Source: Planctomycetota bacterium (GTDB taxonomy: Bacteria; Planctomycetota; Planctomycetia; Gemmatales; Gemmataceae). Taken from it: a stretch of DNA of 64,000 bases. Both the position numbers and the translations under genes were made by a program. Below the pieces are notes generated by a model. The model made no database searches and had not been told where the DNA came from. It saw only the letters and a program-made list of their open reading frames with translations. Location of the stretch: the NCBI GenBank assembly GCA_016873095.1, contig VGYC01000004.1:1-64000 (forward strand). Reading direction: 5' to 3'. Positions 3,644 through 63,425 of this stretch are shown here, one piece after another; within the stretch, counting starts at the first letter, position 1, and each line of letters begins with the position of its first letter.

Positions 3644-3719
3644 AGGATGCGCCGAGGGGGTGTATGTCACTTTCTGGACGAATCCTGGACGAATACTCTG
3701 GACGAATATTCTGGACGAC
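3644..3719 (+). repeat. Dispersed TGGACGAAT repeat, copy A
   Basis: Begins GGATGCGCCGAGGGGG, continues with TGTATGTCAC TTTC, then three successive TGGACGAAT-type words (13-14 bp period). The same order of words occurs at 31501-31552 (plus) and 63116-63175 (minus). No gene was recognised in 3514-3865 around it. Confidence 0.8.
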
Positions 3720-4787: not shown

Positions 4788-4813
4788 GGCTCGGCAGGAG
4801 CCTCGCCCACGCG
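4788..4813 (+). repeat. GGCTCGGCAGGAGCC dispersed palindromic repeat, single copy
   Basis: The word GGCTCGGCAGGAGCCTCGCC, whose ends pair (GGCTC/GAGCC), occurs here between the convergent glycosyltransferase and YciI genes and again four times at 28481-28686. Position between convergent genes fits a terminator-like role (inference). Confidence 0.7.
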
Positions 4814-4826
4814 AGATCCGTGACGA

Positions 4827-5141: not shown

Positions 5142-5594
5142 TAACCACGGATTACACGGATGGCACGGATAAGAAAAGTACCATTAACGGACTATCCTCT
5201 GCCATTCGAGTCTGGCACTCTTGAAATTCAACAAGAGGGCGAGCTTCAGATTGGTGATGTGCAAGTAGCCGATCATTTGGGCCATGTGTGATTCATTGAA
5301 CGCCGTTACCACCTTCGGATCAGCGATGACCAGATCATCCACGATCATGTCTGGTATCAACGTGCCGATGAGTTGTCTGTCGTAATGGACGTCAAACTGG
5401 CGCTGGTCTTCAACTTTATGACCCCTCTTGCGAAGTTCGATGATCAACGCCTTCTCATAGAGCTTTTCATCCAGGCCCGGCTTCAGGGTGTTTAGCACGG
5501 TCATCGCCGCTCCGATGATCGACTCGCTCAGTTCCTTATGAATCAGCTCGTGAGTCATGTCTTCTATCCGTGCTATCGGTGTGATCCGTGGTTA
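5142..5594. mobile_element. Inverted-repeat-bracketed element carrying a GxxExxY gene
   Basis: The left arm (5142-5173) reads TAACCACGGATTACACGGAT followed by GGCACGGATAAGA. The right arm (5561-5594), read on the minus strand, reads TAACCACGGATCACACCGAT followed by AGCACGGATAGAAG. The two arms match at about 26 of 31 positions and point toward each other, enclosing just the one gene. Two short elements with the same ends but no gene lie at 28374-28464 and 31202-31311. No target-site duplication beyond a base or two is obvious. Confidence 0.65.
5184..5558 (-). CDS. GxxExxY protein
   Basis: 124 aa, with the defining motif in LKPGLDEKLYEKALIIELR (G..E..Y) near residues 27-45. Also present are an RQFDVHYDRQLIGTLIPDMIVDD core and IGYLHITNLKLALLLNFK, a layout resembling the PD-(D/E)XK nuclease fold: D in PDMIVDD and, by inference, further acidic/basic residues. 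No function has been established for the family. The start codon at 5558 is only a few bases inside the right inverted repeat, so the repeat arm supplies its 5' leader (AGAAG just upstream). The gene fills almost the whole space between the two arms. Confidence 0.9.
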   Translation of the reverse strand: MTHELIHKELSESIIGAAMTVLNTLKPGLDEKLYEKALIIELRKRGHKVEDQRQFDVHYDRQLIGTLIPDMIVDDLVIADPKVVTAFNESHMAQMIGYLHITNLKLALLLNFKSARLEWQRIVR

Positions 5595-18986: not shown

Positions 18987-19085
18987 GAGGCCCTAAAAGA
19001 AAGGGGACAGGACCTTTGGCTGTCGCTGAATTGCGTCGTTCTTGGGGCGTTTGTAGAGGTCCTGTCCCCTTTCTTTTAGGGCCTC
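18987..19085. repeat. 99-bp element with perfect 29-bp inverted ends
   Basis: GAGGCCCTAAAAGAAAGG...GACAGGACCT (18987-19015) is matched base for base in reverse complement at 19057-19085, around a 41-base centre. The AAAGGGGACAGGACCT core resembles REP-like sequences associated with Y1 (RAYT-type) transposases (recollection, not searched). No transposase lies in the window. Confidence 0.85.
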
Positions 19086-19494: not shown

Positions 19495-22455
19495 ATGAAC
19501 AAGCTCGAGCTGCCGACGGTTGCTGCGTCGCGCGCGCCGGGGCACGCCGATGTGGCCGGCTGTCTGTCGGCCCTGGAAAAGAGCATCGCCGGCGAGGTGC
19601 GCAGCGATCGTCTGAGCCGGGCCATTTACTCCACCGACGCCAGCGTTTATCAGATCGTCCCGGCCGGGGTCGTGCTGCCGAAGTCGCAAGCCGACGTCCG
19701 CGAAGTCGTCGGCATCAGTTCCGCCTTCGGCGTGCCGATCACGGCGCGCGGCGGCGGCACATCGCAGGCGGGGCAAGCCATCGGCCCCGGCATCGTGCTC
19801 GACTTCTCCAAGTATCTGAACGGCATCCTGGAGATCGACGCGGCCGGGCGGCGGGTCCGCGTCGAGCCTGGCTGCGTGCTGGACGATCTCAACCTTGCCC
19901 TCAAGCCGCACGGACTGCAGGTCGCGCTCGACATCTCGACATCCAATCGCGCCACCATCGGCGGCATGATCGCCAACAACTCGTCCGGCACGCGCTCGGT
20001 TGTCCACGGCAAGACGCTCGACCACGTCCTGGGCCTCAAGGTGATGCTCGCGGACGGGACGATCATCGAGGCGCAGCCGTTGAGCGCCGGGCAGCTGGCA
20101 AGCAAGCTCGCGGCAACGGATCTGGAAGGCGAATGCTATCGTGTGGTTCAGCGCCTGGCGCACGAGCATGCCGCCGAGATCGAGCGCCGCTATCCGAAGA
20201 TCCTGCGGCGCGTCGGCGGCTACAACCTCGATGAGTTCGTGCCCGGCAAGCCGTTCAACCTCGCGCGGCTGCTGGTCGGTTCGGAAGGGACGCTGGCGAT
20301 CACGCTGGAAGCGACGCTGCGGCTCACGGAGTTGCCGCGCGGCAAGGCGGTGCTGGTCGTGCAGTTTCACGATCTGCTCGACGCCCTGGCTGCCACGCCT
20401 GCCATCCTCAGGCATGGCCCCTCGGCCGTGGAAGTCATCGACAGGCATGTGCTGGACAGCACGAAGCTCAACGCCGAGGCGTCGCGGCTGCGTGGCTTCC
20501 TGCAGGGCGATCCGGGGGCGATCCTGATCATCGAGTTCTACGGCGACGGCCGCGACGAACTCGCCGGCAAGCTGGACGCACTGTCGAATGAGTTGCTCAA
20601 GCAGGGCCACGGTTATCATCTGCATCGGGCCATGGAGGCCGCCGAGCAGGCGAGCATCTGGAAGCTGCGCAAGCTGGCGCTTGGCTTGTCGATGGCGGAG
20701 AAGGGGGACGCCAAGGCGATGTCGTTCGTCGAGGATACCGCCGTCGCCGCCGGGAGCTTGCGCGACTACATCGCCGAGTTCCAGGAGATCATCCAGCGGC
20801 ATGGCACGACCGCCGGCATCTATGCGCACGCCTCGGTCGGCTGCCTGCACGTGCGGCCGGTGGTCGATCTCAAGACCGAGAGCGGCGTCAAGCAGTTCGA
20901 GAGCATCGCCGGCGAGGTCGCCGATCTCGTCCTCAAGCATGGCGGGGCACTGTCCGGCGAGCACGGCGACGGCCTGGTGCGCAGTCCCTTCCAGGAGAAG
21001 ATGTACGGGCCGATCCTGTACCAGGCGTTTCGCGAGATCAAGCGGACCTTCGATCCGAAGAACATCCTCAACCCCGGCAAGATCGTCGATGCGCCGCCGC
21101 TGGCGAGCAACCTGCGTTATGGTTCTGCATACGTGACGCCCAATGTGGAGACGACGTTTGACTTCAGCGCCGACGGCGGCGTGGTCCGCGCGACCGAGCT
21201 TTGTGGGGGAGTGGGCGAGTGCCGCAAGAAGCGCGACGGCGTGATGTGCCCCAGCTACCAGGCGACGATGGAGGAGCAGCACAGCACCCGCGGCCGGGCC
21301 AACGCGTTGCGGCTGGCCATGACCGGACAGCTCGGACTCGACGGGCTCACCGATCCGGCGTTGCACCACGCGCTCGACCTGTGTCTTGAGTGCAAGGCCT
21401 GCAAGAGCGAGTGCCCCACCAACGTGGACATGGCCAGGCTCAAGGCCGAGTTCCTGCACCAGTATCATCGCAAGCACGGCTTGCCGTGGCGCAACCGCCT
21501 CTTCGCCCAGGTCGCGAAATATAGCAGGTGGGGCCGGCGGGCGCCGTGGCTGTACAACTGGTTGACCGGCGGCCGGCTGCCGCGCTGGCTCAACGACAAG
21601 CTCTTCGGCATCGACCGCCGCCGTGTGCCGCCGAGGCTGGCGCGCGAGCGCATCGACTTTAGCCGGTTCTGGATCGAGGAACAGGGACTGACATCGGGCT
21701 CGCATTGTCCCGCTGTGCTTCTGTTTCCGGATACCTTCACGCGCTACCATGAGCCGGTGCTGGCCCGCGCGGCGGGGCGGATCATCAACAGATTCGGCTG
21801 GCACTTCCTGACTGCCGCTGAGCCGCCGGGCCTGACGTGTTGCGGTCGGCCGATGATCTCCAATGGCATGCTGGATCGTGCAGTTGCCTGCGCGCAACAG
21901 AATGTCGAGGCGCTGCTTCCCTGGGCGGACAGCGGTAAGCCGATCATCGCCTGCGAGCCAAGCTGCCTGCTGACGATCAAGGACGACTACCCGGCCCTGC
22001 TGCGCGGCGACTTACGCGACAAGGCGATGGTCGTGGCGCGACAGTGCCAGACATTTGAGGAATGGGCCGAGGCACGCTTCGCGGAGAAGAACCTCACACT
22101 AACAAGCAACGGGATGAAGAAGATCCTGGTGCAGGCGCACTGTCACCAGCGTGCCCTGGTCGGCGTCGAGCCGATGCTGCGCTTGCTGCGGCGCATCCCG
22201 GGTTTGGAGGTCATCGACCTGGACGCCGGCTGTTGCGGCATGGCGGGTTCGTTCGGCTACGAGAAGGAGCACTACGAAATCTCGCGTCTCGTCGGCGAGC
22301 AACGGCTGTTCCCCGCGATTCGCGCGGCGTCGCCGGATACCGTCATCGTCGCGCCGGGGCTATCGTGCCGCATGCAGATCGAGCATTTCACGGGGCGGAA
22401 GGTGCTGCATCCGGCGATGTTGCTGGATTCCCTTTTGGCGAGCGTCGCGGCGTGA
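19495..22455 (+). CDS. FAD-binding and (4Fe-4S) oxidoreductase (D-lactate/glycolate dehydrogenase-like)
   Basis: 986 aa from ATG 19495. The N-terminal FAD_binding_4 (VAO) domain (about 50-240) has ITARGGGTSQAGQAIGPG and NNSSGTRSV. The FAD_oxidase_C domain (about 260-560) ends with HGGALSGEHGDGLVRSPF and FDPKNILNPGKIV. An Fe-S region follows with CGGVGECRKK...MCPSY and CLECKACKSECP (residues about 565-650). The C-terminal CCG-type half (about 740-980) has LTCCGRPMISNG, CHQRALVG and DAGCCGMAGSFG. This fused GlcD-GlpC/GlcF layout is typical of quinone-linked 2-hydroxyacid dehydrogenases. D-lactate, glycolate or D-2-hydroxyglutarate are all possible substrates. Single-gene unit; its last codons form the left arm of a 28-bp inverted repeat. 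Confidence 0.93.
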   Translation: MNKLELPTVAASRAPGHADVAGCLSALEKSIAGEVRSDRLSRAIYSTDASVYQIVPAGVVLPKSQADVREVVGISSAFGVPITARGGGTSQAGQAIGPGIVLDFSKYLNGILEIDAAGRRVRVEPGCVLDDLNLALKPHGLQVALDISTSNRATIGGMIANNSSGTRSVVHGKTLDHVLGLKVMLADGTIIEAQPLSAGQLASKLAATDLEGECYRVVQRLAHEHAAEIERRYPKILRRVGGYNLDEFVPGKPFNLARLLVGSEGTLAITLEATLRLTELPRGKAVLVVQFHDLLDALAATPAILRHGPSAVEVIDRHVLDSTKLNAEASRLRGFLQGDPGAILIIEFYGDGRDELAGKLDALSNELLKQGHGYHLHRAMEAAEQASIWKLRKLALGLSMAEKGDAKAMSFVEDTAVAAGSLRDYIAEFQEIIQRHGTTAGIYAHASVGCLHVRPVVDLKTESGVKQFESIAGEVADLVLKHGGALSGEHGDGLVRSPFQEKMYGPILYQAFREIKRTFDPKNILNPGKIVDAPPLASNLRYGSAYVTPNVETTFDFSADGGVVRATELCGGVGECRKKRDGVMCPSYQATMEEQHSTRGRANALRLAMTGQLGLDGLTDPALHHALDLCLECKACKSECPTNVDMARLKAEFLHQYHRKHGLPWRNRLFAQVAKYSRWGRRAPWLYNWLTGGRLPRWLNDKLFGIDRRRVPPRLARERIDFSRFWIEEQGLTSGSHCPAVLLFPDTFTRYHEPVLARAAGRIINRFGWHFLTAAEPPGLTCCGRPMISNGMLDRAVACAQQNVEALLPWADSGKPIIACEPSCLLTIKDDYPALLRGDLRDKAMVVARQCQTFEEWAEARFAEKNLTLTSNGMKKILVQAHCHQRALVGVEPMLRLLRRIPGLEVIDLDAGCCGMAGSFGYEKEHYEISRLVGEQRLFPAIRAASPDTVIVAPGLSCRMQIEHFTGRKVLHPAMLLDSLLASVAA

Positions 22456-22518
22456 GCCCGACGTGTCCGCATGCCGCGCGCGACAACTACACGTCGGGCT
22501 CACGCCGCGACGCTCGCC
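22437..22518. terminator. Perfect 28-bp inverted repeat between convergent genes
   Basis: The segment 22437-22464 is the exact reverse complement of 22491-22518, around a 26-base centre. The left arm includes the last codons and stop of the FAD/Fe-S gene. The right arm ends six bases before the stop of the convergent di-heme gene. The core GAGCCCGACG is shared with the hairpin at 8481-8535. Probably a bidirectional terminator of repeat origin (inference). Confidence 0.65.
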
Positions 22519-28373: not shown

Positions 28374-28464
28374 AACCACGGATTACACTGATGGTACGGA
28401 TAAGACACTGGCGAAATGGCGCTACCTACTGGGCGGATCCGTTCTATCGGTGTGATCCGTGGTT
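28374..28464. mobile_element. Short gene-less element with ACCACGGAT inverted ends (copy 2)
   Basis: Left arm AACCACGGATTACACTGATG...ACGGAT (28374-28401), right arm in reverse complement AACCACGGATCACACCGATA...ACGGAT (28436-28464). The centre includes ACTGGCGAAATGGCG, close to ACTGGCCAGATGGCG in copy 3. It looks like a deletion derivative of the element at 5142-5594. Confidence 0.65.
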
Positions 28465-28480: not shown

Positions 28481-28686
28481 GCGGAGGGAGGGCGAGGCTC
28501 CTGCCGAGCCGTGGAGCGCCAATAACCAAGCGGGTTCACGGCTCGGCAGGAGCCTCGCCCTCCCGCAATTGGGCCGATCCACTGCTCAGGGTTCAGGCTC
28601 GGCAGGAGCCTCGCCTTCCCGCAATTCGGCCATCCACTGCTCGGGTTCACGGCTCGGCAGGAGCCTCGCCCTCCCGCAATTCGGCC
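28481..28686. repeat. Tandem array of about 55-bp units built on GGCTCGGCAGGAGCC, plus one inverted copy
   Basis: Three direct units start at 28532, 28589 and 28643 (spacings 57 and 54). Each contains GGGTTCA, GGCTCGGCAGGAGCCTCGCC, and CCCGCAATT-GGCC, followed by ATCCACTGCTC in two of them. An inverted copy of the core is at 28481-28513. Core ends are self-complementary. Another copy is at 4788. The stretch 28327-28711 holds only repeats. Confidence 0.85.
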
Positions 28687-31143: not shown

Positions 31144-31201
31144 GCGGTTAACCCTCCAAGATCGCCTGGAACAAGAAACCACGGATGACCTGGGACAAAG
31201 A

Positions 31202-31311
31202 AACCACGGATGACACTGATGGCACGGATACGAAACTGGCCAGATGGCGAACAGGGCATGGGAGTGTGATGCCTGCTGAACCGATCCGAGGTATCCGCGT
31301 GATCCGTGGTT
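31202..31311. mobile_element. Short gene-less element with ACCACGGAT inverted ends (copy 3)
   Basis: Left arm AACCACGGATGACACTGATG...CACGGAT (31202-31229), right arm in reverse complement AACCACGGATCACGCGGATA (about 31283-31311). An extra half-site AACCACGGAT lies at 31177-31186, 25 bases before the left arm. The centre shares ACTGGC.A.ATGGCG with copy 2. Confidence 0.65.
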
Positions 31312-31500
31312 CATTCTTAAAGGTTTCTGACAACTGCAGTGTGGTCGATGATTGACGCGTGGCGTGAGCAGTACCCCCAGATCTGCGAAAAGGCAAGGTC
31401 CCATTTGCGATGACGGGTGGACTCGGCGGCTTGCAGCCCTTCCTTCAAGAGAGCGGCCGCCTGCCAAATTGGCATGCCGAGGCGAAAATGATTCCAGCGA

Positions 31501-31552
31501 AGGATGCGCCGAGGGGGTATATGTCGGTTTCTGGACGAATCCTGGACGAATC
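31501..31552 (+). repeat. Dispersed TGGACGAAT repeat, copy B
   Basis: AGGATGCGCCGAGGGGGTAT, then ATGTCGGTTTC, then two TGGACGAAT words. Same word order as copies at 3644 and 63116. No gene is recognised between 31144 and 31758 apart from the repeats noted. Confidence 0.8.
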
Positions 31553-31758
31553 TTTTGAACGCATCTCCTGCCGAGTGAGGTCTCCGTTGTGGCTTTCGCG
31601 GCGGGTGCGTGGAGTTCGCGCAGGCAATGCGAGCGGAAGAGTGTGAGCAAACAACGTTTGCAACGCGAATGCCGCGTGACTACAATCTAAGTAACGATTG
31701 CCGGAATCATGGAGTCGGTATCCCACCTGGAAGTGCGCTTACCCACCGAGCGACGGCG

Positions 31759-63075: not shown

Positions 63076-63425
63076 CATGCGCACGCAAAGCCGTGAGCAT
63101 GGCACGCGGGCGATCCGTCCAGAATATTCGTCCAGGATTCGTCCAGAAACCGACATATATCCCCTCGGCACATCCCGCTCCGGACGCATTCAGCGAAATC
63201 TGCTGCCGCCCGGCACAGCTGACCTGGCAAAGCCGGCTTCTCATGGTCTAATGGACGTAGGGGCCGGTCTGCGGCAGAGCGACGGCTCACAAACTGCATG
63301 CCACGCGCTTGCGGTTTCGCGCACCGTGTCCCCAGGCGGGCGAGGATCGTCGTTAGTGAGTCGATTTGGTCCGCGCAAGCGCGTGGCGTGCTGGTTTGCC
63401 ATGCTCACGCAAAGCCGTGAGCATG
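63076..63425. repeat. Palindromic repeats CATGCTCACG-CGTGAGCATG and relatives
   Basis: CATGCTCACG (63400-63409) pairs with CGTGAGCATG (63416-63425) around CAAAGC. A copy with one mismatch is at 63076-63101. A separate long-range pair, CCACGCGCTTGCG (about 63301-63313) with CGCAAGCGCGTGG (about 63374-63386), lies between them. Both are planctomycete-type dispersed repeats; 63061-63550 holds no gene that I recognise. Confidence 0.7.
63116..63175 (-). repeat. Dispersed TGGACGAAT repeat, copy C
   Basis: On the minus strand: GGATGTGCCGAGGGGATATA, TGTCGGTTTC, then TGGACGAATCC, TGGACGAATATTC, TGGACG. Matches copies at 3644 and 31501. Inverse orientation to the other two. Confidence 0.85.

Follow-up and report, generated by a model that had tools for sequence, protein, structure and literature searches.

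Homing nucleases with a PD-(D/E)XK domain are known, and for TnpB-type nucleases it has been proposed that the element is retained by cutting of empty sites, after which the unit is copied back. In REP/RAYT systems, dispersed short palindromic repeats go with a nuclease gene that is flanked by them (PMC2817692, PMC3733652). The 23S rRNA intervening sequence of Coxiella has an S23p open reading frame that is preceded by three tandem GACAGAT heptamers (PMC4990558). We analyzed a planctomycete locus that shares features with several of these systems. It contains a gene of the GxxExxY family, whose members are widespread small proteins without an assigned function. An earlier note on this DNA had proposed that the gene and the inverted repeats around it form a minimal mobile element.

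The locus and its protein

The window is the whole 64-kb stretch of DNA that was analyzed, and it comes from a genome assembly of 8.36 Mb in 548 contigs. A left arm at 5142–5171 (plus strand; TAACCACGGAT-TA-CACGGAT-GG-CACGGATA) faces a right arm at 5565–5594 (minus strand; read inward, TAACCACGGAT-CA-CACCGAT-AG-CACGGATA). Each arm is 30 nt long, 27 of 30 positions (90%) are complementary, and the only open reading frame in the 393 nt between them is the GxxExxY gene (5184–5558, minus strand; 124 amino acids), whose start codon and the right arm's inner edge are 6 nt apart. These measurements confirm the earlier description of facing ends (about 31 bp, with roughly 26 matches) that enclose only this gene, with its start codon within a few bases of one arm. 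The left arm contains three CACGGAT heptamers, and three CACGGAT iterations separated by 2 nt describe the ends better than a single 31-bp repeat does. The note's choice of ACCACGGAT as the defining feature needs to be corrected accordingly: the defining feature is an iterated heptamer, and its sequence varies with the protein subfamily. The host genes on either side, a DUF6807 gene upstream (PF14100; 5616–6629) and a YciI-like gene downstream (PF03795; 4827–5129), are on the minus strand, as is the gene in the unit.

The GxxExxY protein matches TIGR04256 (GxxExxY; E = 3.9e-36, 123.9 bits versus a curated cut-off of 35) and PF13366 (PDDEXK_3; E = 1.3e-34, 119.5 bits versus a curated cut-off of 22); it does not belong to PF05635 (S23p/four-helix bundle). 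The putative catalytic residues are E31, D70, D80-x-K82, and Q94xxxY98, and E31, D70, E/D80, K82, Q94, and Y98 are conserved in 135–142 of 142 sequences. No solved relatives were found by sequence. An AlphaFold2 model (mean pLDDT 96.6, pTM 0.88) has lambda exonuclease-type enzymes and the Cas4 protein SSO0001 as its nearest solved folds in Foldseek (probability about 1.0, TM up to 0.60, and E of 1e-3 to 7e-3, which is just above 0.001). From the residues and the fold, we predict that GxxExxY is a PD-(D/E)XK nuclease of the RecB/Cas4/lambda-exo-like group. The profile, the conserved residues, and the predicted structure thus bear out the note's suggestion of a PD-(D/E)XK-like protein.

By profile search, PD-(D/E)XK is the only domain in the unit and there is no transposase (DDE, HUH, or serine or tyrosine recombinase); profile and structure searches of the unit found no Y1 (HUH) transposase, and no Rfam family matched in it. 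PADLOC gave no match to a defence family. An origin from phages or plasmids was considered and rejected: there was no match to a phage family in PHROG, and we found six plasmid records and three viral contigs, one (L193) with arms of the GxxExxY-unit type. The open literature mentions GxxExxY only in passing, and none of the arm strings that we tested is printed there in a relevant paper (the sole print is in an unrelated fish eDNA study); most subscription papers lie outside this search, so an earlier description is possible.

The window contains seven copies of ACCACGGAT versus 0.43 expected, and none of 100 shuffles reached seven. It also contains gene-less copies, which the note had mentioned: one at 28374–28464, with facing arms of the window unit's class and a 35-nt loop, and one at 31176–31311, with a 54-nt loop and a left arm of which part is duplicated (at 31176 and 31201). 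Across the source genome, a 26-nt arm pattern has 66 matches (the reversed control has none), mostly in facing pairs with loops of under 75 nt. We parsed 23 facing pairs, and the single gene-sized pair is the one around the GxxExxY gene. There was no target-site duplication above expectation in these 23 pairs. The flanks of units diverge too fast to fix the exact insertion point, and no sufficiently close empty site was available. Spacers compared between the arms of one gene-less pair were no more alike than spacers from different pairs (p = 0.57; this is a weak test, as the pairs are partly of common descent). The source genome's two other GxxExxY genes have facing repeats as well, and the sequences of these differ from those at the window's gene (GCCGCAAGAAACGCAAAA; CCACAAAGGACACAAAG).

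Other repeats were noticed in the window. A dispersed palindromic repeat, CGGCTCGGCAGGAGCCTCGCCCTCCCGC, lies at 28486–28683 and 4788–4820, with near copies singly or in rows; it is REP-like and unrelated to the unit. There are perfect inverted repeats at 18987–19085 (29 nt, GAGGCCCTAAAAGAAAGGGGACAGGACCT, 41-nt loop) and at 22437–22518 (30 nt, 22-nt loop), and another dispersed repeat (CGCCGAGGGGGTATATGTCGGTTTCTGGACGAATC) has three sites, at 31487–31571, 63106–63190, and 3645–3707.

Facing arms around GxxExxY genes in other genomes

Because the other GxxExxY genes of the source genome have different repeats, we scored flanks de novo. The arm score is the inverted similarity between the 200-bp flanks of a gene, our criterion was a score of at least 31, and shifted windows at the same loci were the control. 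Among genes with long enough flanks in 31 planctomycete genomes and the source genome, 40 of 58 GxxExxY genes reached this score, versus 1% of 1,171 shifted windows. In a wider set from a scan of all prokaryotes (3 of the 83 loci are from viral contigs), 54 of 83 genes had arms versus 0.6% of 2,760 shifted windows; the spurious cases among the 54 (L195, L162, L188, and L124) were dropped from later tests. Eight further genomes gave 24 of 28, with a few genes that overlap the wide set. Over all three sets, which span Planctomycetota, Bacteroidota, Chloroflexota, Proteobacteria, and archaea, 118 of 169 GxxExxY genes have facing arms with a score of at least 31. The expectation that facing repeats would be commoner around these genes than in a control therefore held (65–86% versus 0.6–1% of shifted windows). 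At the same threshold, 14–35% of GxxExxY genes lack recognizable arms. When flanks were cross-paired, 8% reached a score of 31, which is above background; because one syntax common to all units lifts cross-paired scores, the shifted windows are the cleaner control. The two arms agree within a unit and differ between units, even in one genome.

These genes and repeats are abundant. At least one GxxExxY gene is present in 32 of 59 related genomes, and one scan gave over 580 candidate loci. CACAGAG/CACGAAG/CACGGAT-type repeats, which have had no named owner, reach over a hundred matches per genome, and the generic arm pattern reaches up to 174. Gene-less units outnumber gene-bearing units. No recent duplication of a complete gene-bearing unit within a genome was seen, and identity between paralogues of one genome did not exceed 74% in the genomes that we compared. 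On the tree of proteins from the wide set, phylum labels change 32 times versus a minimum of 15 (the tree has few columns and weak support), which is compatible with horizontal spread but is not proof of it. At five loci (L156, L114, L118, L076, and L099), the whole flanking arm is a hairpin, which places a gene-less unit at each end of the unit. L082 (genome G025) has a hairpin-gene-hairpin arrangement, in which a GxxExxY gene with a stop codon has a complete gene-less hairpin on either side.

A typical arm has about three heptamers of the form CRCNRAK (CACAGAG, CACGGAG, CGCAGAG, CACGAAG, CACAAAG, CACGGAT, and others) with spacers of 1–3 nt. Between a unit's two arms, the cores mismatch at 7.3% of positions versus 40.3% for the spacers (p = 7e-70), and within the core only the free position N is frequently mismatched (27%). 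Selection for an RNA stem would be expected to bias mismatches toward G-U pairs in the sense transcript. We counted 179 G-U wobbles in the sense orientation and 163 in the antisense orientation of GxxExxY units, which is no strand bias, and 34 and 43, respectively, in units with a four-helix-bundle gene. Without a sense-strand bias, the arms resemble sites that a protein recognizes in DNA more than an RNA stem, and the spacers, in which complementarity is not preserved, also argue against the RNA-stem model. We conclude that selection maintains the heptamer word, most simply as a protein's recognition site in DNA.

Arm similarity rises with protein identity across genomes (Spearman 0.35 among 90 units, 0 of 500 permutations as high; within single sets, r was 0.16–0.18, with 3–4 of 500 permutations as high). 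The window protein's clade has D instead of E at residue 80. Within Planctomycetota, members of this D80 clade at 62–77% identity to the window protein have CACNGAT arms: L082, L096, L104, and L109 have CACGGAT, and L105 is decayed. Two D80 proteins from a Verrucomicrobiota genome, at 40–45% identity, have CACTGAT (L242) and CACGGAT (L248) arms. The correspondence between arm class and protein clade is not one to one and not strict. L077 is D80 with other arms, L253 is D80 with odd arms, and L247 is E80 with CACGGAT arms. Among genomes with at least four matches to the generic arm pattern, 10 of 10 have GxxExxY, versus 11 of 31 others (p = 0.0005), and a window-type protein is present in 5 of 10 genomes with at least five CACGGAT repeats versus 1 of 49 (p = 0.0003); both tests are without correction for phylogeny, with thresholds set after the counts were known and with some incomplete assemblies. 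No window-type gene was detected in the other five genomes with at least five CACGGAT repeats, several of which are incomplete assemblies. The note had suggested that the protein acts on the repeat. The correlation between arms and protein and the constraint on cores versus spacers support this indirectly; the action itself is something that we infer from these patterns.

Filled, empty, and gene-less sites

Within a genus of Bacteroidaceae, ten species have a mutA/mutB joint of 2–23 nt, and two have a 490-nt GxxExxY unit there; in genome G191 (L296), the insert is a four-helix-bundle gene (PF05635), and its facing arms consist of 7-nt iterations. In Flavobacterium, the batD/batE joint is 0–48 nt in 29 species that we read closely; seven have a GxxExxY unit, and others have shorter inserts, of which one is a clean gene-less hairpin (L312) and several are decayed remnants. 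The miaB/regulator joint is empty in the nearest relative (83% identity) of the genome in which it is filled, three other species have GxxExxY units of other arm classes there, two have gene-less hairpins of the 7-nt type rather than the GxxExxY type, and further species have different small genes. The bioB joint of Mucilaginibacter is represented by empty sites, GxxExxY units, and HepT/MNT pairs. Since these joints are empty in some relatives and filled in others, the units are insertions. The note had looked to empty sites in relatives as a sign of mobility, and all four joints provide them. Small cassettes of several kinds insert preferentially at operon joints.

Two observations concern other inserts and sites. 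At the miaB/regulator joint of Flavobacterium, L381, L382, L383, and L385 have a small putative membrane protein in arms of 7-nt GTTTAAA-type iterations; the L381 copy had no Pfam match, and this protein may represent a third type of gene for units of this kind. The GxxExxY unit L241, in Flavobacterium G059, is upstream of thrA and follows what appears to be a threonine leader peptide, in an attenuator-like region.

For GxxExxY orthologues at batD/batE, dN/dS is 0.03–0.09, and the CAC..A.G columns of their arms are invariant although synonymous sites are near saturation. Strong purifying selection acts on the genes, and the ends are under purifying selection as well. The GxxExxY gene shares the sense of the upstream gene in 67 of 75 units, and that of both neighbors in 57 of 75 (from heuristic ORF calls); elsewhere, 68% of adjacent gene pairs are on the same strand. 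As the units occupy narrow gaps within transcription units and mostly share the upstream gene's sense, host transcription should read through them.

Among planctomycete four-helix-bundle genes (TIGR02436), 17 of 32 have facing arms, mostly of about 7-nt iterations such as (CAGTTTT)n and (GATGAGG)n. Given also the four-helix-bundle gene with 7-nt-iterated arms at a mutA/mutB joint, there is a parallel class of unit. The Coxiella intervening sequence encodes the same protein family and has its tandem heptamers ahead of the open reading frame, and the intervening sequences in general may belong to a broader class of elements, as its residents in rRNA genes. We found no unit in an rRNA gene. Ten loci had short matches to rRNA probes (nine to one 16-nt probe, in the mutB region, and L087 with a 15-nt match, on both strands, close to the unit), and we took these to be chance.

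Possible mechanisms and relation to known systems

Comparison of sequences was enough to establish the architecture of the unit, its recurrence across phyla, the filled and empty sites, the gene-less versions at the same joint, and the association of arm class with protein subfamily. The explanation that we favor, with moderate confidence, is a minimal insertable unit whose nuclease recognizes the heptamers at its own ends and whose cutting mobilizes or keeps the unit. The nuclease would bind these heptamers as double-stranded DNA in the unit that encodes it and also, in trans, in the dispersed units of its class that have no gene, and cutting of DNA would be the step that mobilizes the unit or keeps it at its site. 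The joining of ends to target could be due to host repair, to a replication-linked copy step, or to a recombinase acting in trans. It counts against this explanation that the unit encodes no strand-transfer activity, and no single PD-(D/E)XK domain is known to integrate DNA alone. The empty sites, the enrichment of facing arms, and the transposase-free unit do support the note's minimal element without a classical transposase.

The ends could instead be MITE-like and moved in trans by an unrelated transposase (e.g., Y1/RAYT or DDE), with the nuclease as a passenger or a retention device. We consider this unlikely. It would suit the excess of gene-less over gene-bearing units, the lack of a joining enzyme in the unit, and the genomes that have repeats without the matching type of nuclease. 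However, an unrelated transposase would not predict that arm class tracks GxxExxY subfamily across phyla, and a GxxExxY gene is present in every genome that is rich in the generic arm repeat. We are more doubtful that the arms are operators for autoregulation, or that recombination at hot spots in operon joints, rather than the unit's own action, has spread the unit as cargo, for example as a defence gene. The same joints do also take up HepT/MNT-type pairs and further small genes, and the arms are within a few bases of the gene, but the arms face each other on both sides, there are up to 174 generic-pattern matches per genome, gene-less remnants occur at the same joint, and no defence family matched.

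In an RNA-level element like the 23S rRNA intervening sequence, the arms would pair in the transcript and be trimmed by RNase III, the insertion would be neutral, and the protein would be incidental. The sense orientation of the units within transcription units (67 of 75 with the upstream gene and 57 of 75 with both neighbors), the S23p gene and tandem heptamers in Coxiella (PMC4990558), and the four-helix-bundle unit at the same mutA/mutB joint all fit such an element. We nevertheless consider it very improbable: there is no sense-strand G-U bias (179 versus 163), complementarity is not preserved in the spacers, dN/dS lies well below 1, and we found no unit beside an rRNA gene (again taking the ten short-probe matches as chance). 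Generic intergenic repeats are abundant in these genomes and might by chance lie on either side of a small gene, but a qualifying arm score occurs in 0.6–1% of shifted windows versus 65–86% of GxxExxY genes, and left and right arms agree within a unit and differ between units. The chance of this is negligible, and at the level of the family the shifted-window controls refute it.

Overall, it seems probable that GxxExxY genes mark a previously undescribed, pan-bacterial class of minimal mobile elements, which combine a Cas4-like nuclease with facing arrays of its cognate heptamer and can both seed and maintain gene-less copies, and that they parallel an S23p/four-helix-bundle class that includes the 23S rRNA intervening sequences as special cases. 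The link to the repeats offers a function for testing for these proteins, an origin for the repeats, and a type of mobile element without a recognized joining enzyme. The correspondence between arms and proteins would be a natural series of nuclease specificities. If the four-helix-bundle parallel is true, there is a type of element that inserts between ordinary genes, and the 23S rRNA intervening sequences would be a special case of it.

Among described systems, Cas4 and lambda exonuclease resemble GxxExxY in predicted fold and in the D-ExK-QxxxY residues, but the GxxExxY unit has no CRISPR or recombination partner gene. With 124 amino acids, GxxExxY also lacks the extra domains of Cas4. Insertion sequences and MITEs share inverted ends, a single gene, gene-less derivatives, and empty sites with these units; the GxxExxY unit differs from them in having no transposase and no detectable target duplication, and in having ends that are iterated recognition words and that differ between units of one genome. 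As with homing endonuclease genes (PMC3943268), a stand-alone nuclease gene is inserted at joints, but here there is no intron or intein, there are many insertion sites, and the unit has its own facing ends and gene-less derivatives. The association of dispersed palindromic repeats with a nuclease gene is shared with REP/RAYT; unlike in REP/RAYT, there is no HUH/Y1 transposase and no GTAG-tagged hairpin, the enzyme is predicted to be PD-(D/E)XK, and the ends are iterated heptamers. Compared with the 23S rRNA intervening sequences (PF05635, TIGR02436), the GxxExxY protein is unrelated, the ends have CRCNRAK words with 1–3-nt spacers instead of a 7-nt period, and the units are between protein genes instead of in rRNA, with no RNA-pairing constraint seen. 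Nevertheless, both have the same plan: one small gene, in about 430–540 nt, between facing ends.
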